Below are positions 23,680-63,386 of a DNA stretch of 64,000 nt, one piece after another. This DNA comes from Anadara kagoshimensis. Lineage: Eukaryota; Mollusca; Bivalvia; Arcoida; Arcidae. A program made the translations under genes and the position numbers. The stretch lies in the NCBI GenBank assembly GCA_021292105.1, contig CM037863.1, positions 7,141,298-7,205,297 on the forward strand. Reading direction: 5' to 3'. The first letter of the stretch is position 1. Each line of letters opens with the position of its first letter. Under the pieces are notes generated by a model that saw nothing but the letters and a program-made list of their open reading frames with translations, ran no database searches and was not told the DNA's origin.

Positions 23680-23940
23680 CTCCCTGAGCACCCGGTCTTA
23701 CTTCTCTGTTGTAAAGATCATGTGTTTAACTTCAATTGCCAGATTCAAAAATTCCACTTTGCTTTTTTATTGTGATTTTGACATTGATTATTTTGCTTTA
23801 AGATTACGATGAGGACATGAAATTGTATGTTTGTTTTTAGTTTGCTTTATGATTGAGATTATATACATGGACAAGTATTTTTGTTCTACTTTGCTTTAAG
23901 ATTGTGATGTGGACATTGATGGGTATGTTTGGTTTTGATG
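23680..23940 (-). repeat. Family A 5' half with ~4 tandem copies of its terminal unit
   Basis: CTGAGCACCCGGTCTTACTT and a TTTGCTTTTTTATTGTGATT unit are followed by three further diverged TTTGCTTTAAGATTGTGAT/ACATTGATGGGTATGTTT units. This is the same 48-bp end unit that is amplified at 34.1-35.5 kb. Confidence 0.65.
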
Positions 23941-24271: not shown

Positions 24272-24395
24272 CAATCAAAAACAAACTCCTTGTTTAAATC
24301 ACAATCCCAATGCAAAGTAATATACACTTGCTTATTTATGTGCAAATCAAAATCCCAAGCCAAAGTAAAATAAAAAACTTTGAAGCTTTCTCAAG
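24272..24395 (+). repeat. Family A terminus, two tandem units
   Basis: AATCAAAAACAAACTCC is followed by two AAATC(A)CAATCCCAA-GCAAAGTAA units and then a short stretch of body ending near AACTTTGAAGC. Confidence 0.6.
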
Positions 24396-33461: not shown

Positions 33462-33850
33462 TGTCTCAGTCCATGTTCAAATCACAATTCCAAAGAAAAT
33501 TAAAAACTTCGAAAATGACAAAATTAAGTCAGACACGTGGTTCTTACACTTCCGGAGTACTTCACTTGACTTCCCGGATGAAAGTTAATGTGTTTATCTT
33601 AATTTGTCTTAAAGTTTTTACTTTGCTTTGAAATTCTGATTTGGACATGGATTGGTATGTTTGGTTTTTTTTTCTTTGGATTGTGATTTGGACATGGATT
33701 GGTATGTTTGTTTTTACTTTTCTTTGGATTGTGATTTGGACATGGATTGGTATATTTGTTTTACTTTGCTTTGAAATTCTGATTTGGAAATAAATTAGAA
33801 TATTTGTGTTTACTTAGCTTTAGGATTGTGATTTGGACACAGACGTGTAT
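33462..33850. repeat. Family A inverted pair with tandem terminal units
   Basis: A plus-strand terminus and body (33462-33541; TCCATGTTCAAATCACAATT, CAGACACGTGG) is followed by a minus-strand body, then about five TTTGCTTTGGATTGTGATT/TGGACATGGATTGGTATG units of ~48 bp running to 33850. Confidence 0.65.
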
Positions 33851-34112: not shown

Positions 34113-35463
34113 CAATAATAAAAACAAACATACTTATCTTTTTCCAAATCACAATCCAGAAGCAAAGTAAAACAAACATTCAATCCATGTCTAAATCACA
34201 ATCCAGAAGCAAAGTAAAAACAAACATACAATCCATGACCAAATCACAATCCAGAAGCAAAGTAAAAACAAACATACAATCCATGTCCAAATCACAATCC
34301 AGAAGCAAAGTAAAAACAAACATACAATCCATGTCCAAATCACAATCCAGAAGCAAAGTAAAAACAAACATACAATCCATGACCAAATCACAATCCAGAA
34401 GCAAAGTAAAAACAAACATACAATTCATGTCCAAATCACAATCCAGAAGCAAAGAAAAAACAATAATTCAAGCCAAGCCCAAATCACAATCAAGAGCAAA
34501 GTAAAAACAAACATACGATCTATGTCCAAATTACAATCCAGAAGCAAAAAAAAAACAATAATTCAATCCATGTCCAAATCACAATCCAGAAGCAGAGAAA
34601 AAAACAAACATACAATCCATGTCCAAATCACAATCCAGAAGCAAAGTAAAAACAAACCATACAATCCATGTCCAAATCACAATCCAGAAGCAAAGTAAAA
34701 ACAAACATACAATTCATGTCCAAATCACAATCCAGAAGCAAAGTAAAAACAAACATACAATCCATGTCCAAATCACAATCCAGAAGCAAAGTAAAAACAA
34801 ACATACAATCCATGTCCAAATCACAATCCAGAAGCAAAGTAAAAACAAACATACAATCCATGTCCAAATCACAATCCAGAAGCAAAGTAAAAACAAACAT
34901 ATGATCTATGTCCAAATTACAATCCAGAAGCAAAAAAAAACCAATAATTAAATCCATGTCCAAATCACATTCCAGAAGCAGAGAAAAAAACAAACATACA
35001 ATCCATGTCCAAATCGCAATCCAGAAGCAAAGTTAAAAAAAAACCATACAATCCATGTCCAAATCACAATCCAGAAGCAAAGTAAAAACAAACATACAAT
35101 TCATGTCCAAATCACAATCCAGAAGCAAAGTAAAAACAAACATACAATCCATGTCCAAATCACAATCCAGAAGCAAAGTTAAAACAAACATACAATTCAT
35201 GACCAAATCACAACCCCTAAGCACAGTAAAAACAAATATACAATCCATGTCCGAAACACGATTCAGAAGCAAAGTAAAAACAAACATACAATCCATGTTT
35301 AAATCACAATCCAGAAGCAAAGTAAAAACAAACATACAATCCATGTTTAAATCACAATCCAGAAGCAAAGTAAAAACAAACATACAATCCATGTTTAAAT
35401 CACAATCCAGAAGCAAAGTTAAAACAAACATACAATCCATGTTTAAATCACAATCCAGAAGCA
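34113..35463 (+). repeat. 48-bp tandem array derived from the end of family A (~28 units)
   Basis: Each monomer runs AAAAACAAACATACAATCC, ATGTCCAAATCACAATCC, AGAAGCAAAGT. This is exactly the outer 5' end of family A. Spacing is 48 bp where checked (34281 to 34329). A variant block with GATCTATGTCCAAATTAC, CAATAATT and GCAGAGAAAAAAAC recurs ~386 bp apart (~34.51 and ~34.90 kb), which is a higher-order unit of eight monomers. Because 48 is a multiple of three, long open frames appear on both strands. They have no start context, composition or family match and are not genes. Confidence 0.95.
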
Positions 35464-35605
35464 ATGTAAAAATTTTGAAACTGATTAGTTAGTTTACACA
35501 CGTAAACTTCCACCATGGAAGTGCGACAGGGTGCTCCAGAAGGGTAAAGAATTTCTATTTAGCTAGTTACACCTGCCACGAGTGTTATAAAAATTAAATA
35601 AGTAT
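35463..35605 (+). repeat. Family A body attached to the 48-bp array
   Basis: TGATTAGTTAGTTTACACAC, AACTTCCACCATGGAAGTGC and TTAGCTAGTTACACCTGCCA follow the last array unit directly. The array is therefore an expansion of this copy's own 5' end. Confidence 0.85.
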
Positions 35606-36156
35606 AATAAATTAATTAAAAGTTAACAAACATATTTTTCTTTCTTTTTTGCTTTTTATATATTTTTTAAAACATCAAGACGTATTATTGTCTGTCCAAT
35701 CTGCTCCTCCAACACAGTTAAGGTTGTTTTTACAAGGCTTGGTATGCATAATTGACAGGATGCCAGGATGTGACATTGTGTATTTCAGAAGAGGCAGATA
35801 CTCTTTGTACATTTCTTAAACTTCTGGTTGTGTATTTCACTTTTTATAAAATTAGTACGCATGTACTACGTTAAAGTTCTCTGAATCGAAAATGTAGTTT
35901 ATAATATGGTTTTTTTTCCAAAAGGATTCCTTGTTGACTTTGTTGTGGCGTCCTTAGAAACCTGAGATTACTCTAAACTGACGCCATAGAAACTCTAAAA
36001 ACCATTTCCATTTTCGTTTAAAGCACGATAACAGTTGATATGATAAAATCGGGACGTCATATGGAGAACAAAAAGGGTATTCTCAAATCACTGGTAGTCG
36101 AAAAAATAATTGTAAGAGATAAGCTAAGCTTGGGCTTTGCACAGCTTTGTCAATGA

Positions 36157-36698
36157 ATGTCTTGCCAAATTCTTGATAAGTGTGTAAAAAAGGGAGAAAT
36201 AGAGTATGGACCTAGTACAGTAAGTGTATGTAAGGGTTATTTGAGAGCAATCTTAAACGCCAAAAGTACAGTGCAAGTTTAATCAGTAAGTTCGAATTTT
36301 CAAAATTCAGGGAATCGCTTAAATCAATGCAAAAGAACCTAAAGAGCAAATTGATATGGAAATAGTCCAAAAACTGCTGAAACAATTACACACGATGAAC
36401 TAGACGATTTATGAAAATGTGGTTTACCTGGAAACAAAATACCATTGTTAAACACATTTTGGATTAATAATACATTTCAATTTGGAATGAGAAGGGGTGA
36501 GACAAAAAAAATCTCTGTTGAGGTGACTTTGAGCAAAATTTTGATCATAAATTATACAAGGAGTACTTGGTACAAAAAGAAACACAGACAACGACAAGGA
36601 CGGGGGAAGACACTGACAATGTGCTAACAGAACACCATAGGATGCTTAAAATGCCAAACTTTTATGGTATTGTGGTTGCTAAGTTATCCGAACGTTAG
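36157..36698 (+). pseudogene. Decayed Crypton/QRICH1-type (DUF3504, ZMYM2-like C-terminal) domain fragment
   Basis: Broken reading frames on the plus strand line up in the order of the domain shared by QRICH1, ZMYM2-4 and Crypton-derived proteins. Frame 1 (36157-~36280) reads ...ILDKCVKKGEIEYGPSTVS then KGYLRAIL, like the usual kkdG-EYEPsTl-RyL block. Frame 3 (36285-~36362) reads FSKFRESLKSMQKNLKSK, like the fR-LdaeMKeLtskG block. Frame 1 again (36370-~36510) reads AETITHDELDDL, a stop at 36412, KCGLPGNKIPLLNTFW, then FGMRRGE, matching adpit-eeE-LW-g-lg-LLNT-f-FGLRgg-EHR. Frame 3 (36522-36695) reads GDFEQNFDH, EYLVQKETQTTTRTGED, matching the GD-YLe-ERqTKTRTG block, then PNFYG. It has at least three frameshifts, one internal stop, and no intact ends. 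The order of motifs is seen; the family call is from memory of the domain. Whether it came from a Crypton transposon or a host QRICH1-like gene is open. Confidence 0.6.
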
Positions 36699-36932
36699 GA
36701 ACCAATCCTCTGTTGTAGCTGTCTTGTATAGGTTAAATAGGATTTTTTTTCTTTCTAGTATTACAATTTATAAACTCGTTGTCTTGTTATTCCATCTATT
36801 TATCCATCTCTCCATTCGTGCGTTAATCTTGTTGTGCTTTTCGTTGACCGGACATTCCTCTTCACACACAATATTCCAGACATTTCTGTCCGTTCTCACG
36901 TTTACTTGTGACAACATTGTGAATTATGTACA

Positions 36933-37155
36933 CAGTACGGGCCTGACGAAAGTTTGACACTTAGATAACTATATAACGCATGCCGAATTGACAGCTAACA
37001 CCTGAAGTCCCTCGTCTGCTATATTTGGGCAGCTGCTATATCTATCTCTAGGCAGCTTTCAGTCTCTAGCTATCGATATATAAACCACACGGTGGCAGCC
37101 GGGCGTTGACTACTTCTCGTTAACCCAGTGTTAAACTTTCGACAGGCGTGCATTG
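36933..37155. mobile_element. CAGT MITE copy
   Basis: CAGTACGGGCCTGACGAAAG at the left and AACTTTCGACAGGCGTGCAT, TG then TA at the right. 223 bp; the left TA is lost. Confidence 0.75.
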
Positions 37156-37320
37156 TAGCTCTCTGTTGGTCTCTCTCTAATAGATGGTTTGGCGTATTTG
37201 TGGTTTGACCGATTTTATTGTAAAACACACTAGCATGTCGTTCAGTCACTTGATTGTTTTTCAACCCACCCATCAGATATATTTGATATAGGTCTATATT
37301 CTTTTCACTCTCATATTTTA

Positions 37321-37684
37321 TCACACACGTGGTGGGTGTAGCTAGCGTAACAGGAAATGCTTACTCTTCTAGAACAACCGGTCTCACTTCGCTAGTGGCA
37401 ATTCACTTGTTACACAATTTGTCAGTTCAAGGTTTTGAATTTGCTATTCTATTGTGATTTGAACATGGATTGGTATGTTTGTTTTACTTTGCTTCTGGAT
37501 TGTGATTTAGACATGAATTGGTATGTTTGTTTTACTTTGCTTTGTTATTGTGGTTCGGACTGGATTGGTATGTTTGTTTTTACTTGGCTTTGGGATTGTG
37601 AGTTGGACATGGATTGGTATGTTTGTTTTACTTTGCTTTGGGATTTTGTTTTGTACATGGGTTGGTATGTTTGTTGTTGATTGA
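37321..37684 (-). repeat. Family A 5' half with ~5 tandem terminal units
   Basis: CACACGTGGTGGGTGTAGCT, AGAACAACCGGTCTCACTTC, then about five units of TTTGCTT-GGATTGTGATT, ACATGGATTGGTATGTTTG. The amplification mirrors 34.1 kb but in the opposite orientation. The 81-residue open frame here is a repeat artefact. Confidence 0.8.
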
Positions 37685-37689
37685 TACTG

Positions 37690-38560
37690 TCGTAATTTCA
37701 GCTGGAATGTTCCCTGTCAAAACAAAACTTAGTATACAATTATACAATTACCATTTAATCTCACTATACCAATATACTGTGGACTCAGTATCAAACATCG
37801 GGCTGCTTTTTAGGAGATCCCCTTTCTTACAAAGCTATTAATGAACTAAATACTTGGAATTCAACGATAAAAACTGAAAAACAAAGAAACAAAATCAGTG
37901 AATTAGGATCCGCCGACAGCAGTTTTTAAATCTCGAATTTAATATCTCCTCTTTCTCTGAAAGGCGGTCGGAGGATAAAAATGGGAAATCCTAGTAGCTT
38001 TTTGTTTATCTGTAGCAGAACAAACGTCCCCTTGTTCAATGTTCGGACCAAATCCATTTAAATCTCAATATTTCTTTCAGACTTCGACTTGTAGAAACCT
38101 TGAGGCCAATATGCATGCCATCGAACTCACATAAGCAATTAATTACTATTAAGTCCCCCGAGGAGCCTACATTATGCGTGATATGTTGACGTACGTCAAA
38201 TTGTGTAAAACTTCGCCTGGCATGCTGTTTTTGGCGTACCCTTAACTGTTATGCAAATGGGTAAGTTTTAGAAATAGAATATTATGTATCGTCTTGTCTT
38301 TGTTATTATACGCACTTTGACGCCGTTTGCGTCATTACTGACGTTAATACTCACATATATGCGATGTTTATAACGCGTTTTAATAATAATTTTAAAAAAA
38401 CCTTCTTCATCAAATAACCTCTTTGATTCGTGCATTATGACATTTAATTTGTCGCCATTCAAATAAATCTCCCACATAGGTTCAAGGTATATGGAATTAA
38501 AATTTAAATCTGCCCATGTGACGTTGAGTGATAAAAGATAAGGTTTTATTATTAAATTTC
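37690..38560. other. No feature recognised
   Basis: Mostly unique-looking sequence. The 69-residue frame at 38268-38477 lacks any signature. Confidence 0.5.
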
Positions 38561-38561
38561 T

Positions 38562-38565
<4 letters not shown>

Positions 38566-38592
<27 letters not shown>
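38566..38592. repeat. Poly-T tract
   Basis: Abuts the truncated SINE at 38593. Confidence 0.9.
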
Positions 38593-38594
<2 letters not shown>

Positions 38595-38816
38595 ATTATA
38601 CAGCAGGGTTCTTGATTATGCCACGCCTATAGTGACATGGTACCCTGTTTATTTTAAGTTCCCATCCGGATGAACGTGACATTCATTTTGTAATGCGGAG
38701 TGTTTGGCGAAATAACAGTCACTAGTGACTTTCAAGTCTTGGGTCAGACTCGGCCGGGGATGGAACCCACAACATTTCACTCACGCAAGCACTATACCAA
38801 CTGAGCTATCGCAGTG
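38593..38816 (-). mobile_element. tRNA-headed SINE, 3'-truncated, next to a poly-T tract
   Basis: Reverse head ATACCAACTGAGCTATCGCA and TGGAACCCACAACATTTCAC. The tail past TTGCATTATACAGCAGGG is missing and replaced by ~25 T residues. Confidence 0.75.
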
Positions 38817-38881
38817 GTTTAAAGGAGAAGGAGGGTGGATAATTAGTGATTAAAATATATCTGTCTTGTCTTGTCTTGTTT

Positions 38882-39010
38882 GGTAGAGCTTCTTCCCATT
38901 ACATGAGCACCCGGTCTCACTTTCCTGGTGGAAGATCAAGTGTCTAACTCGACTTATCAGTTCCATAGTGATGGTGATTCGGACATGGATTAGTATTTTT
39001 ATTTTTTATC
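38882..39010 (-). repeat. Family A terminal fragment
   Basis: GAGCACCCGGTCTCACTTTC, AAGTGTCTAACTCGACTTAT and ACATGGATTAGTATTTTT. Confidence 0.65.
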
Positions 39011-39244
39011 GGTTTTGTATTGCTTGTCTTGTTTGATGTGTATTTTGTGTTCTTCGTTGTCTTGTCCTTTTGTCTTAATTATTTTTTCATTTGCTTAATT
39101 ATTTCACTTTTTCACCTTTACATGTTAAATACTACAGCTGAACTGTGTACATTTCAGTTACAGACTGAGCCCTTGTCCAATAAGATGTACAAAGTTGAAT
39201 TTTTTTTAATCCATCTGAACAATTATAAAGACAATTATATTGAC

Positions 39245-39600
39245 CGTACAGACAGGTAGTCTTACTCCTTCAATGCTTCACATTATCGCAACTCCTCTGC
39301 TTCACATAATCACAACTTTGCTGCTTCACATTATCGCAACTTCATCCATTTGCTTTATCGCTCTTTTGCCTTCGCAACTTCACTGCTTCACATATTGCAA
39401 CTTCATACATTTGCTTTATCGCTCTTTTGCCTTTGCAACGTCGCGGTTTCACATTGTTGCAACATAAACCATTCGCCTTGTTAGTTTTGCCTTCGTAAGT
39501 TTGCTGTTTCACATTATTGCAATATCAACCATTCGCCTTGTTTGCTTTGTCTTTGCAACTTGGCTGCTTCATATAATTACAACTTTACCTTTTTGGTCAA
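39245..39600. repeat. Degenerate minisatellite
   Basis: GCTTCACATTATCGCAACT repeats many times, with a longer ~75-bp unit (CATTTGCTTTATCGCTCTTT, TGCCTTCGCAACTTC). Open frames across it are compositional artefacts. Confidence 0.75.
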
Positions 39601-39662
39601 GTGTAAAAATGTCATATAAAAATCTAAAACAACACGTGAATTTAAAACTTTGCGCATACATA

Positions 39663-39837
39663 CGGTACATACCTGTCGAAACTTTAAAACTACACAGTCC
39701 CCTTGTTAGCTGTATCTCCACAGTTTTTAAGCAGCTGCTGTTGTTTCTGAGAGCTTTTAGGCCACTAGCTCTCCCTTTTTTGGCCATTCGGCACTAATTC
39801 GTCAGCTTAGTGTTAAACTTTCGACAGGTCTGTACTG
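39663..39837. mobile_element. CAGT MITE copy whose 3' end seeds the 43-bp array
   Basis: Left end CGGTACATACCTGTCGAAAC after TA; right end GTGTTAAACTTTCGACAGGT, CTGTACTG then TA. The array begins at that TA. Confidence 0.85.
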
Positions 39838-40568
39838 TAATTCGTCAGCTCAGTGTTAAACTTTCGACAGGTCTGTACTGTAATTCGTCAGCTCAGTGTT
39901 AAACTTTAGACAGGTCTGTACTGTAATTCGTCAGCTCAGTGTTAAACTTTCGACAGGTCTGTACTGTAATTCGTCAGCTCAGTGTTAAACTTTCGACAGG
40001 TCTGTACTGTAATTCGTCAGCTTAGTGTTAAACTTTCGACAGGTCTGTACTATAATTCGTCAGCTCAGTGTTAAACTTTCGACAGGTCTGTACTGTAATT
40101 CGTCAGCTCAGTGTTATACTTTCGACAGGTCTGTGCTGCAATTCGTCAGCTCAGTGTTAAACTTTCGACAGGTCTGTACTGTAATTCGTCATATCAGTGT
40201 TAAACTTTCGACAGGTCTGTACTGTAATTCATCAGCTCAGTGTTAAACTTTCGACAGGTCTGTACTGTAATTCGTCAGCTCAGTGTTAAACTTTCGACAG
40301 GTCTGTACTGTAATTCGTCAGCTCAGCGTTAAACTTTCGACAGGTCTGTACTGTAATTTGTCAGCTCAGTGTTAAACTTTCGACAGGTCTGTACTGTAAT
40401 TTGTCAGCTCAGTGTTAAACTTTCGACAGATCTGTACTGTAATTCGTCAGCTCAGTGTTAAACTTTTGACAGATCTGTACTGTAATTCGTCAGCTCAGTG
40501 TTAAACTTTTGACAGATCTGTACTGTAATTCGTCAGCTCAGTGTTAAACTTTCGACAGGTCTGTACTG
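39838..40568 (+). repeat. 43-bp tandem array, 17 copies of a MITE end
   Basis: Monomer TAATTCGTCAGCTCAGTG, TTAAACTTTCGACAGG, TCTGTACTG (43 bp). 731 bp divided by 43 is exactly 17. Each unit is the 3' terminal ~41 bp of the adjacent CAGT MITE plus the flanking TA. Units differ by few substitutions (for example GACAGATC in three late units). TA follows the last unit at 40569-40570. Confidence 0.95.
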
Positions 40569-40602
40569 TATCTGCTTGACCTAACTAGTTGTCTTTTACA
40601 TA

Positions 40603-41181
40603 CAATACAGGCTTGTCGAAAGTATAAAATACGTTACAACGAAGTAGGCTGCTTGCAAATAAATTGTTGACTCAGGGATATTGCAAGCCTAGGCTTATCA
40701 AGTCCCTCAAAATGTTTTATGGCCGTCATTACAGTATTGTTGACAAGTTTGATGTATCTGTGTCCAGGATTGCCCTGGATATATTTGACGTCTCATAGTT
40801 CCATGTTCCTTTCACACAATTTTGATTACACACGTGGCGGGTGTAGCTAGCTAAACAGGAGGTGCTTAACCTTCCGGAGCACCCGGTCTTATTTCCCTGG
40901 TGGGAGTTCACGTGTATAATCTAACTTGTCAGTTCCAAAGTTTTTACTTTGCTTCTGGATTGTGATTCGGATATGGATTAGTATGTTTGTTTTTGATTAA
41001 CTAAGTTTTCTGTCAAATCGTTAGCTCACCACGTTACCTATATCTTGGCATCTCCTGTCTGTCTATATATCTGTCTTTCTGCAGCATTTCGGCCACAAGC
41101 TATCAATATTTCGCCAACTCGGCAGCCGAATTTCGAAAATATGTTCATAAGCTTAGTGGTAATTTTTCGACAAGTATACTG
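40603..41181. mobile_element. CAGT MITE copy split by a family A insertion
   Basis: CAATACAGGCTTGTCGAAAG after TA at the left and TTTTTCGACAAGTATACTG at the right. Removing the 359-bp family A copy (40641-40999) leaves ~220 bp, the normal MITE length. Confidence 0.75.
40641..40999 (-). repeat. Family A repeat, best full-length copy
   Basis: Reference copy for the window's most abundant repeat (~350-360 bp). Read on the minus strand it starts TAATCAAAAACAAACATAC, then (C/T)ATGTCCGAATCACAATCC, AGAAGCAAAGTAAAAACTT, GACACGTGAACTTCCACCAG, GGTGCTCCGGAAGG, TTTAGCTAGCTACACCCGCC, ACGTGTGTAATC, GACGTCAAATATATCCAGG, then GATAAGCCTAGGCTTGCAA, and ends near GCAAGCAGCCTGCTTC. No terminal inverted repeat or coding frame is apparent. 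It sits inside a CAGT MITE (40603-41181). Confidence 0.85.
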
Positions 41182-48002: not shown

Positions 48003-48545
48003 TTATTTTCCAAGTCCTAACAGTCGTTGTTTATTGGATTCAAGTTCTTCTCGTAGTCTTTGCTGTCCGCTTGCCGCTAACATTTCAGCAAATGTTGCCA
48101 TAGCACCGTTCACGGATAACCTTTGCCTTTTTTGAAAACCAATTTCATTTGCTGATTCGTATCCGTTTTGAATTGGGTCGTCTAATCCTACGTCATTTCC
48201 TGTTTTACCAATCCCGTAATAACCGTCGTTCTCATTTGTAGATTTTTGATCAATGAGTTGGCTTCTTTTTCCAAGTCGATACAATTTGGCGTGATTTATT
48301 GAAGCCGCTGAAGGTGCCTTCCAACTCCGTCTTTGCTGTTGTGTAAATAACATCCGTGCTAAAGATCGAAGTCCATTATTCATTGAAAATGGTATAGCTC
48401 GCTTTAGGCGTGAAATTTCTGGTATGGACAAGGCTTCACTTTTGCCCATTAAATTCGCTCCGTTAAAATCACGTATGGCATATGAATCCGCAGCAATGCA
48501 CAATGAAAATATAATAAGTACCGTTGGCAGTCCGAATACTTTCAT
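48003..48545 (-). CDS. Egg-laying hormone (ELH)-type neuropeptide precursor, coding exon
   Basis: A 180-residue secreted prohormone. Residues 1-23 form a signal peptide (MKVFG..., hydrophobic LPTVLIIFSLCIAA core, cleavage likely after SYA). A KR site (48-49) releases peptide 1 (50-91), which ends LYRL before GKR (92-94), the amidation plus dibasic signal. A spacer (95-138) with GYYGIGK follows. KR (139-140) releases peptide 2, which ends LLGL and is followed by GK and the stop, so it is also amidated. From LSVNGAMATF to LLGL peptide 2 is 36 residues, the same length as Aplysia ELH as I know it, with the same layout: (L/I)S(V/I)N start, ML near position 13, RQRLL-type end. Peptide 1 (FSMNNGLRSLARML...) is a second, diverged ELH-like copy with an internal RR (72-73). 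The family acts as secreted peptides on reproductive and neural targets and is related to CRF/DH44 hormones. The ATG lies 10 bases inside an exon with a clean acceptor, so the whole coding region is one exon. Candidate poly(A) signals on the minus strand lie at 47334-47339 and 47163-47168. Expression is not shown. Confidence 0.9.
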   Translation of the reverse strand: MKVFGLPTVLIIFSLCIAADSYAIRDFNGANLMGKSEALSIPEISRLKRAIPFSMNNGLRSLARMLFTQQQRRSWKAPSAASINHAKLYRLGKRSQLIDQKSTNENDGYYGIGKTGNDVGLDDPIQNGYESANEIGFQKRQRLSVNGAMATFAEMLAASGQQRLREELESNKQRLLGLGK

Positions 48546-48555
48546 TGCCGCTAAT

Positions 48556-48580
48556 CTGTAAGATAGAAAAAAATAAAATA
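48556..48580 (-). other. 3' splice site (acceptor) in the 5' UTR of the ELH gene
   Basis: Read on the minus strand, a T-rich tract runs into CTATCTTACAG, followed by ATTAGCGGCA and then the ELH start codon. The AG is at 48557-48556 and the exon starts at 48555. This implies at least one upstream non-coding exon. I could not identify its donor or a promoter within the window. Confidence 0.75.
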
Positions 48581-48835
48581 ATAAGTTTGAGATTTAAGCT
48601 TAAATTACCAGTATTTGCAACATTTTAAATACAGAAGTAGTATAATAATTTATTAAAGTGTCACATAACAACATACAGATATCACACATAAGAATAAATA
48701 GTATGTAAATTATCTAAAAACATGTATTAAAATGTATGGTACCCTGCCTATAAAGGCATACGAGACACTGTCAAAATAGCTATATACAATAAAGATAAGA
48801 AATATCACATAAAAATGCTAACAAATTGTTCAACA

Positions 48836-56149: not shown

Positions 56150-56660
56150 CACAAATAAATTCAAGACCAGCACAAATAGCTTTGATTTAAAATCGTTTTT
56201 AAAAGAAAGAACTGTCGACATTCAAGACCAACACAAATAGCTCTGATTTAAAAACGATACCCGTCAAAATTCACGACCTACCACAAATACCTTTTATTTA
56301 AAATCGGTTTTAAAAGAAAGACCGGTCGAAATTCAAGCTCCAGCACATTTAACTTTGATTTAAGAAAAAAAACGTCGACATTCAATACCATCACAAATAG
56401 CTATGATTTAAAAACGATACCCGTCAAAATTCACGACCTACCACAAATACCTTTTATTTAAAATCGGTTTTAAAAGAAAGACCGGTCGAAATTCAAGTCC
56501 AGCACAAATAGCTCTGATTTAAAAATGATAACCGTCGAAATTTACGACCAAGAACAAATACCTATGATTTAAAATCGGTTTTGAAAACCAAGATCCGTCG
56601 AAACTCAAGACCTAGCACAATAGCTGTGATTTAAAATCGGTTTTAAAAGGAAAAAAACTG
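56150..56660. repeat. ~50-60 bp tandem repeat (about nine units)
   Basis: TTCAAGACCAGCACAAATAG, CTTTGATTTAAAATCGG, TTTTAAAAGAAAGACCGTCG recurs, alternating with shorter units (AAACGATACCCGTCAAAATT, CACGACC). The alternation gives a ~110-160 bp higher-order period. Confidence 0.8.
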
Positions 56661-62472: not shown

Positions 62473-62720
62473 ACTAAAACCTCGTTATAATGACCTTGAT
62501 AACTTTACCACCTCGATTATCACCACAGTGCGATAAAACCTCATTATAACGCCCTTCAATAACTTTATCACCTCGGCTATCGCCACAGTACAGTAAAACC
62601 TCATTATTAATGCCCCCAATAACTTTACCACTTCTCGTATGACCACAGTACGGTAAAACCTCATTTTTTTATAATGCCCCTCAAAAACTTGTCCAACTTG
62701 CTTATCATCACGGTATTTTT
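62473..62720 (+). repeat. 60-bp tandem repeat (about four units) with a MITE-like end in each
   Basis: Units CAGTAAAACCTCATTATAA, TGCCC-CAATAACTTTACCAC, TCGTATCACCACAGTA are spaced 58-60 bp (AAAACCTC at 62477, 62535, 62595 and 62655). Two of the three junctions read AGTA followed by C(A/G)GTAAAACC; the first reads AGTG. Confidence 0.8.
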
Positions 62721-63039
62721 AAGTCCCATAATCAATTTCTTCTATTTGTTGTTCCTTTATACGAGCTCTAAGTATATTGTCAAAACCTTTTATAATGCCA
62801 GAATTAGACTAAGCATATGACGCTGATGAGTCGAAGACAGTTTTCTGCATCCTCCAACGGCGTATATTTACAAGATACTTACTCCCTTGCAATCTGAGTA
62901 AATTTCAAATTCAAATTTCTTTATAAATATCTAGAATTTCATGAAATTGCATCATATTTAAAACAGAATCTAATTACGGAAGTTATTCCATGAACCTCTG
63001 ATACAATAAAGTGTTAGGGAAAAAATAAGCTGCCTATAA

Positions 63040-63386
63040 GTGCCAGATCGGCAGCTGAGTTCGGTATGGCGTTAGCTAGATATTAACAGCAGCTGAAATC
63101 TATCTCTCGACAGATTTCCGGTCACTAGCTATCCATATCTAAGTCACTCGACAGCCAAACTTTGATCCCTTTTTGTTACCTTGTTGTTAAACTTTCGACA
63201 GGCCTGTACTGTAGCTATTCATCTCTCGGCAACCCGACAGTCGAGCTTCGACTCCTATTCGCTAGCTCAGTGTTAAACTTTCGACAGGTCTGTACGGTAG
63301 CTATCCATATCTAAGTCACTCGATAGCCAAGCTTGGACCCTTCTTTGTTACCTTGTTGTTAAACTTTCGACAGGTCTGTACTGTCT
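63040..63386 (+). repeat. CAGT MITE-derived tandem repeat, ~87 bp x 3
   Basis: TTGTTAAACTTTCGACAGG, (C/T)CTGTACTGTA, GCTAT(C/T)CATCT recurs with ends at ~63211, 63297 and 63384. Each unit ends at the MITE terminus, and TA follows the first two; the last is followed by TC. No left MITE end is seen upstream. Confidence 0.75.

Follow-up and report, generated by a model that had tools for sequence, protein, structure and literature searches.

Nested insertions of a CAGT-ended miniature transposon and a probable origin of its terminal tandem arrays in Anadara kagoshimensis

A 64,000-bp stretch of the genome of the bivalve Anadara kagoshimensis (C7:7141298-7205297, GenBank contig CM037863.1; hereafter the window), taken from an assembly of 1.115 Gb in 36 contigs, carries tandem arrays on two repeat families: a miniature inverted-repeat transposable element (MITE) with CAGT ends, and a second family, here called family A. 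At four loci outside the window a CAGT MITE interrupts another at one of its internal TAs, and the array found there has as its unit the tail of the outer element, from the insertion TA to the element end; one of these loci has an empty-site counterpart. On balance we consider it probable that the terminal arrays of this MITE begin with such a nested insertion, which would double the terminal repeat in direct orientation, and then grow by unequal exchange, and that the arrays of family A stem from a separate process. The doubled end sequence that such landings leave appears to have grown into arrays, which would provide one concrete route of satellite birth.

Junctions, units and nested insertions of the CAGT MITE

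A scan of the window for terminal inverted repeats (TIRs) placed the TIR CAGTACAGACCTGTCGAAAGTTTAACAC at both ends of the CAGT element; the two ends (X and Y) differ internal to the TIR. Window copies that are free of arrays and have both ends measure 202-223 bp and are mostly flanked by TA, which adjoins seven of the eight left ends found there. Genome-wide, both exact 16-17-mer ends lie 199-229 bp apart at 262 places (control 0). The target-site duplication of TA is visible in a filled and an empty site, where L046 has a single TA and L045 has one at each side of the inserted copy. Judged by its sequence the element is a Tc1/mariner-like MITE, a label for which we take the combination of CAGT and TA to be indicative. 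Around 1.5% of random genome sequence was CAGT MITE, and the TIR gave no match in the prokaryote and viral collections.

Arrays were searched for as direct pairs of a subterminal 17-mer (GTTAAACTTTCGACAGG). Since this 17-mer stops 9 bp before the element end, the pattern requires neither an exact end nor a TA; it is blind to arrays in the centre or elsewhere inside the element and to those with an outer break more than 9 bp inside the end. Genome-wide, 2536 direct pairs were found at a spacing of 30-60 bp, against none for the reversed control, so the tandem arrays of the MITE are not due to chance; at 60-90 bp there were 3734 (control 0), a count that includes double periods. At exact-end tandem junctions with periods of 32-62 bp, TA came next in 1759 of 1927 cases, a count of units in which the large arrays dominate. 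Counted by locus, among the matches listed (contigs up to C2 for 30-60 bp, C1 for 60-90 bp and C13 in a further listing) together with the window and L011, 33 of 39 loci with arrays or pairs read element end, TA and then internal sequence, six of the 33 with one changed or lost base in the terminal bases. The listed matches and the fetched loci were read by eye to assign junction classes and inner sites; C1:44.10/44.52, C1:5.03/5.11, C1:7.68/7.70, C11:7.44/10.50 and C13:3.85/5.02 (in Mb) were counted once each, and C2:31.87 was merged with C2:31.86. Given that 33 of 39 loci are in register with the exact end and TA, random slippage is insufficient to explain the arrays and transposition is involved, in agreement with what the initial annotation had suggested for the MITE.

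The unit lengths observed were 40, 43-47, 49-51, 60, 63, 64, 77, 81, 84 and 86 bp; nesting at the TAs of a hand-joined MITE consensus predicts 35, 43, 82, 84 and 86 bp, among others. For nine of the 11 unit types that could be placed by eye the inner site is a TA, compared to a TA share of 7.6% among the consensus dinucleotides; unit types that could not be placed (C8:48.99, C9:17.31, C13:3.85 Mb and others) are omitted from this tally.

Among the matches listed, 21 loci have a readable attached MITE and far flank, and at four of them (C1:5.03, C1:4.91, C10:28.35 and C12:8.59 Mb) a MITE within a MITE is visible. The model of nested self-insertion had been formulated before any of these four was retrieved. 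At C1:5.03 Mb (L045) a full 214-bp MITE (M2) lies inside another (M1), in the order ...GCTGCCTA, TA, CAGT...CTG, TA, GCTCTG..., and the joined M1 flanks align over 202 bp, gapless at the insertion point, to L046, a paralogous locus 79 kb off at C1:5.11 Mb. The M1 tail, counted from the insertion TA, forms the 84-bp unit of this array, whose distal flank matches, by eye, that of the uninterrupted M1. Considering that L046 has another array farther on, the region was rearranged after its duplication, and L046 is a paralogue rather than an allele. The far side of M2 at C1:4.91 Mb, fetched as a test, is the rest of M1, from TA to its own end and TA. The outer remainder was likewise seen at C10:28.35 and C12:8.59 Mb, which are two of the 11 readable stretches out of 16 that were fetched at 16 of the 23 new loci of the further listing. 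At C12:8.59 Mb, one of the four loci at which the exact end is not followed by TA, the inner MITE is flanked by TA on one side and by TG on the opposite side.

Scored against the MITE, the far flanks of the four nested loci reached 94, 33, 47 and 48 and those of the remaining 17 loci 12-18; for 2000 random 90-mers the median score was 15 and the 99% point 59. Whether these four flanks are in register was decided by reading the letters. At C1:4.91 and C10:28.35 Mb the alignment extends to the joint, at C12:8.59 Mb it ends before the joint, and for C1:5.03 Mb the register rests on the joined-flank alignment to L046.

The process that we propose would start with M2 inserting, by the normal TA reaction, at a TA inside an M1 of the same family. 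The ends of M2 and M1 would then form two direct copies of the ~30-bp terminal repeat plus TA, with the M1 tail between them, and unequal exchange or slippage between these copies would duplicate the TA and the tail. The resulting units would start at the insertion TA and finish exactly at the element end. The composite would keep outward TIRs and could probably transpose, leaving the other half of M1 behind. The exchange step, any movement of composites after it and a shared origin of the remaining loci are inferred.

Counter-evidence and alternative origins

Several observations weigh against a nested origin. The exchange step was not observed at any locus. The empirical p per nested flank is 0.0035-0.017, because around 1.5% of the random genome is CAGT MITE, and around 0.3 of 21 flanks would be expected by chance if register is not required. 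The outer remainder is absent on the far side at 17 of the 21 readable loci, both window arrays included, and in the 39.8-kb array, L064, L076 and L078 the units share private variants with the tail of the element to which they are attached, a pattern expected of duplication in situ. The exact end is followed by TT, TG, AA or AT at four of the 39 loci, and two others are broken before the end, C1:7.70 Mb by 2 bp and C13:34.28 Mb by 5 bp. Finally, two inner sites are not TA: for the 40-bp units of C1:26.47 Mb the consensus has AA, and for the 60-bp type the attached body has TG.

At the 17 loci without a remainder, the outer half may have been lost by movement of the composite, or the arrays may have a different origin. 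The inner parts of the units in L039, L044 and L050 are, by eye, unlike the attached element, which is to be expected if the tail derives from M1. Units of a hybrid kind, in which the inner part is foreign and the part on the TIR side resembles the attached copy, occur in L066, L069 and L079, and are the outcome that exchange between two tails would be expected to give. In the 63-kb array of the window, unit 2 is unlike the tail of the body and unit 3 close to it (92%, self-comparison). At C1:23.70 Mb a palindrome encloses a 51-bp unit and a MITE between its arms, each joint being marked by TA, a structure that suggests that the outer half may have been left behind when the composite moved.

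The best of the alternatives, though in our view an unlikely one, is one-ended transposition or aberrant gap repair, in which a single cut MITE end would be joined to a TA within its own copy on the sister chromatid and duplicate the tail in one step, without a nested full copy. It comes close to the initial annotation, in which a transposase cut or aberrant end joining at the terminus was suggested to start the arrays. An exact end, TA and an internal TA would be its signature too, and both the absence of the outer remainder at 17 of 21 loci and the private variants shared by units and attached tail would fit; however, the nested insertion is directly visible at four loci, a self-join would not account for the foreign inner parts of the units in L039, L044 and L050, and the reaction is an extra one without separate evidence in these data. 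As ordinary TA insertion made the junction at four of the 21 loci, a mis-cut or aberrant joining is not required, though it may apply at the other 17.

Even less probable is an array start at any point of the element, through random slippage at microhomology or through unequal exchange, with growth afterwards; the register with the end would then be incidental. Breaks inside the element at C1:7.70 Mb (63 bp, GCCG-AGT-ACAG), at C13:34.28 Mb (47 bp) and in the left array of L079 do fit this class, as do the arrays of family A (see below) and those of ~32-bp units from the centre of the MITE (GCTGTCGAGAGATAGATAGCAGCTACCGAAAA type), which lie between two MITE ends in L024 (8408-8785) and beside terminal arrays in L048 and L060. 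Given the three centre arrays, ends are not the sole seeds of arrays, and since in L043, L073 and L077 a complete MITE body is lacking inward of the array, the tie between arrays and attached element ends, as initially described, holds only in part. Nevertheless, 33 of the 39 MITE loci end at the terminus plus TA without the search pattern asking for it. The idea that a few array-bearing MITEs arose once and spread by transposition, the loci thus not being independent seedings, draws on the recurrence of the 43-bp and 51-bp unit types on several chromosomes and at many loci and on the C1:23.70 Mb composite, which looks as if transposed whole, but is very improbable, as the 11 placed unit types with their differing inner sites on both element ends need separate origins and the bodies on 51-bp arrays differ by eye (L039, L044, L067).

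A simple double insertion (end-TA-end, CAGGTCTGTACTGTACAGTACAGACCTG) had no exact match genome-wide, a search in which diverged cases or long palindromes that have since been lost could be missed. Tentatively, the self-nesting of a TA-specific MITE might represent a general way of seeding satellites, with instant mobile composites, a unit length set by the TA that is hit, and dozens of independent satellites as the result. As a separate observation, in L044 a MITE composite occupies the centre (GTCGG-TA-CCGAC) of a palindromic element, the arms of which contain GGGATTTTAAAG.

Arrays of the retroposon-like family A

Family A had been grouped with the TA-flanked families. In the alignment its copies have a common 3' end, TTTGTTTTTGAT, and scattered 5' starts: the starts of 54 matches of at least 70 bp (L018 and L020 excluded) span positions 1-289 of the 358-bp consensus and 41 of the 54 reach its last 8 bp. 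With one 3' end and variable 5' truncation, the family looks like a non-LTR (long terminal repeat) retroposon, and considering this truncation and the fact that no TIR was seen, a TA-flanked DNA transposon was rejected.

The units of family A are mostly 48-49 bp long, and the array junction is internal (GTTT followed by GTTTTTAC), with no terminal TA junction. Most of the visible bodies read, with small changes, into CAAAG followed by TTTTTACTTTGC, a transition not shown at 23.7 kb, 37.4 kb, L018 and L020. At 23.7, 34.1 and 37.4 kb, as well as in L003, L008 and L028, the final unit is followed by the element end TTTGTTTTTGAT or a near variant; no such end was seen at 33.6 kb and in L004, L006, L007, L018 and L020, and the arrays of L002 and L005 extend beyond the locus edge. 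In 20 random stretches of 10 kb from the 19 contigs C1-C19 (200 kb in total), tail arrays comprised 8 kb of 49-bp units (L018), 5.2 kb of 46-bp units (L020), four units (L028) and a pair (L026).

The only direct repeat of at least 5 bp at a spacing of 40-60 bp in the last 110 bp of the consensus is GTTTTT, which coincides with the array boundary. A 6-bp direct repeat at this spacing was present in 636 of 2000 shuffles of the tail; the idea that GTTTTT itself is statistically rare was therefore rejected, and only its coincidence with the junction is informative. The arrays would thus derive from repeated in-situ duplication between the GTTTTT copies, by reverse transcriptase or by replication slippage, and their start would need no transposase, which separates this process from that of the MITE arrays.

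Two diagnostic bases suggested that the arrays represent one inherited subfamily, which the identities between units did not uphold. The comparison covered 14 groups of at least three units (L005-L007 as one cluster; two groups in L018) and 46 single groups. Identity within arrays was 0.89-0.95 (groups of at least 16 units, and L028) versus 0.81-0.87 to other arrays. A single-copy element is slightly closer than any other array for L003, L008 and L028 and about equally close for L002 and L004; the nearest relative is another array, by 0.007-0.008, for those at 34.1, 33.6 and 37.4 kb, and a neighbour in the same cluster for L005-L007 and L018. With identities within the array of 0.74-0.83, those at 23.7, 33.6 and 37.4 kb are too diverged to tell.

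Relation to known systems and other repeats of the window

It is well known that satellites arise from transposons. For the origin of the initial two or three tandem copies one usually relies on models, whereas in this genome the seed step is legible at single-base level, with a nested insertion and its empty-site counterpart, a unit that runs from the insertion TA to the end, and many unit lengths in one genome. The question of seeding is thus open to direct test in populations and related species. In the open-licence literature, as far as its texts were accessible and with subscription papers outside the scope, no report was found of MITE self-nesting as the source of an array unit.

The accessible sections of PMC12628747 list slippage, fold-back, Helitron rolling circle, double insertion at a target-site duplication (TSD), LTR recombination, microhomology and non-allelic homologous recombination as routes to arrays; the section on heterochromatin mentions nested insertion, and self-nesting of a MITE as setting the unit is not proposed in them. 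Following the summary given there, a close parallel is found in the transposable element dimers that form when two insertions hit the same target site (McGurk and Barbash), in which, as here, an insertion preference leads to a tandem that unequal exchange can expand. In those dimers, however, a whole element lies in the TSD, whereas the insertion of the CAGT MITE is internal, its unit is a 40-90 bp tail from the insertion TA, and exact end-TA-end tandems are absent. The miDNA4 element of Xenopus (Scalvenzi and Pollet, summarized in the same source) is likewise a Tc1/mariner-type MITE with arrays of variable copy number, for which short direct repeats were proposed as the start. Its arrays are internal, unlike most CAGT MITE arrays found, which are terminal and phased to the end and TA, although our search pattern cannot see internal ones; the 32-bp centre arrays are closer to miDNA4. 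Tandem repeats within a terminal inverted repeat also expand to longer arrays in TIR-220 of the Tetris element of Drosophila virilis, which, according to the accessible part of PMC4079207, differs in being a foldback element with ~220-bp units and a suggested origin by partial TIR duplication, without TA-phased nesting. For family A, the sections accessible of PMC11121367 offer PcH-Sat, derived from Nin-SINE in limpets, as another case of a molluscan retroposon whose 3' portion became a tandem repeat; PcH-Sat is mainly pericentromeric, whereas the units of family A comprise the final 48-49 bp ahead of the end and adjoin element bodies.

Arrays in the window were called with Tandem Repeats Finder (TRF) and by self-comparison (Table 1). 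All those named in the initial annotation exist, TRF finding each except the family A pair at 24.3 kb, which was seen in the self-comparison only. Their reported position at one element end stands for both arrays of the MITE and for the four larger ones of family A, no attached element was found for the 60-bp array, and junctions of the 'end then TA' kind are found in the MITE arrays of the window, save for the outermost 63-kb unit, but not in family A. The 60-bp units read CCACAGTRCGR-TAAAACC, without a TA before CAGT, and beyond their own array only one 38-bp match was found in the window and L001-L028.

Table 1. Repeat elements and tandem arrays in the window (positions within the window)
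Feature	Position	Strand	Basis
CAGT MITE, 175 bp, both TIRs, TA on both sides; 43-bp array on right end	39663..39837	+	TIR scan, sequence, alignment
17 more 43-bp units, TA-ATTCGTCAGC...CTGTACTG with point changes; TA after the last (TRF: 39795-40570, 18 units x 43 bp, 96%)	39838..40570	+	TRF, sequence
CAGT MITE bearing 86-bp array; left TIR degenerate	63003..63211	+	TIR scan, alignment
Two more 86-bp units; junctions CTG-TA-GCTATT and CGG-TA-GCTATC; TC after outermost (TRF: 63126-63384, 3 x 86 bp, 75%)	63212..63383	+	TRF, self-comparison
Complete CAGT MITE, 223 bp, no array	36933..37155	+	TIR scan, alignment
CAGT MITE with family A copy nested inside (~40642-41008), adjoining 43-bp array	40603..41181	+	sequence, TIR scan
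Family A array, 28 units x 48 bp (TRF: 28.1 units, 90% matches); body 35473-35595, 3' end ~34115	34119..35472	-	TRF, sequence
Family A array, 4.7 diverged units; no element end seen after	33614..33839	+	TRF
Family A array, 4.7 units; body 37276-37450; GTTGATTGA end after last unit	37451..37675	+	TRF
Family A array, ~3-4 diverged units (TRF: 23788-23916, 2.6 units); then end GGTTTTGATGA	23788..23936	+	TRF
Two diverged family A units	~24272..24370	-	self-comparison
60-bp CAGT-ended units (TRF: 62475-62665, 3.2 units); no attached element found	62475..62690	+	TRF

Around 80 bp to the left of the MITE that bears the 43-bp array, 24-bp and 60-bp tandem repeats (CTTCGCTGCTTCACATTATTGC) occupy 39274-39585. 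A higher-order satellite-like array with periods of 50, 62, 111 and 160 bp (TRF) lies at 56157-56649, and other short-unit arrays of kilobase size occur in the random stretches (L027:3132-7907, L015, L016 and L019). The repeat at 38593-38815, with five similar ones near 3.7, 22.7, 31.5, 59.0 and 60.9 kb, has an end (AACTGAGCTATCGCAGTGG) that we take to be tRNA-like, and is presumably related to short interspersed elements (SINE-like). Finally, an open frame of 196 amino acids on the reverse strand (48003-48593), with a signal-like start and dibasic sites, resembles a neuropeptide precursor.

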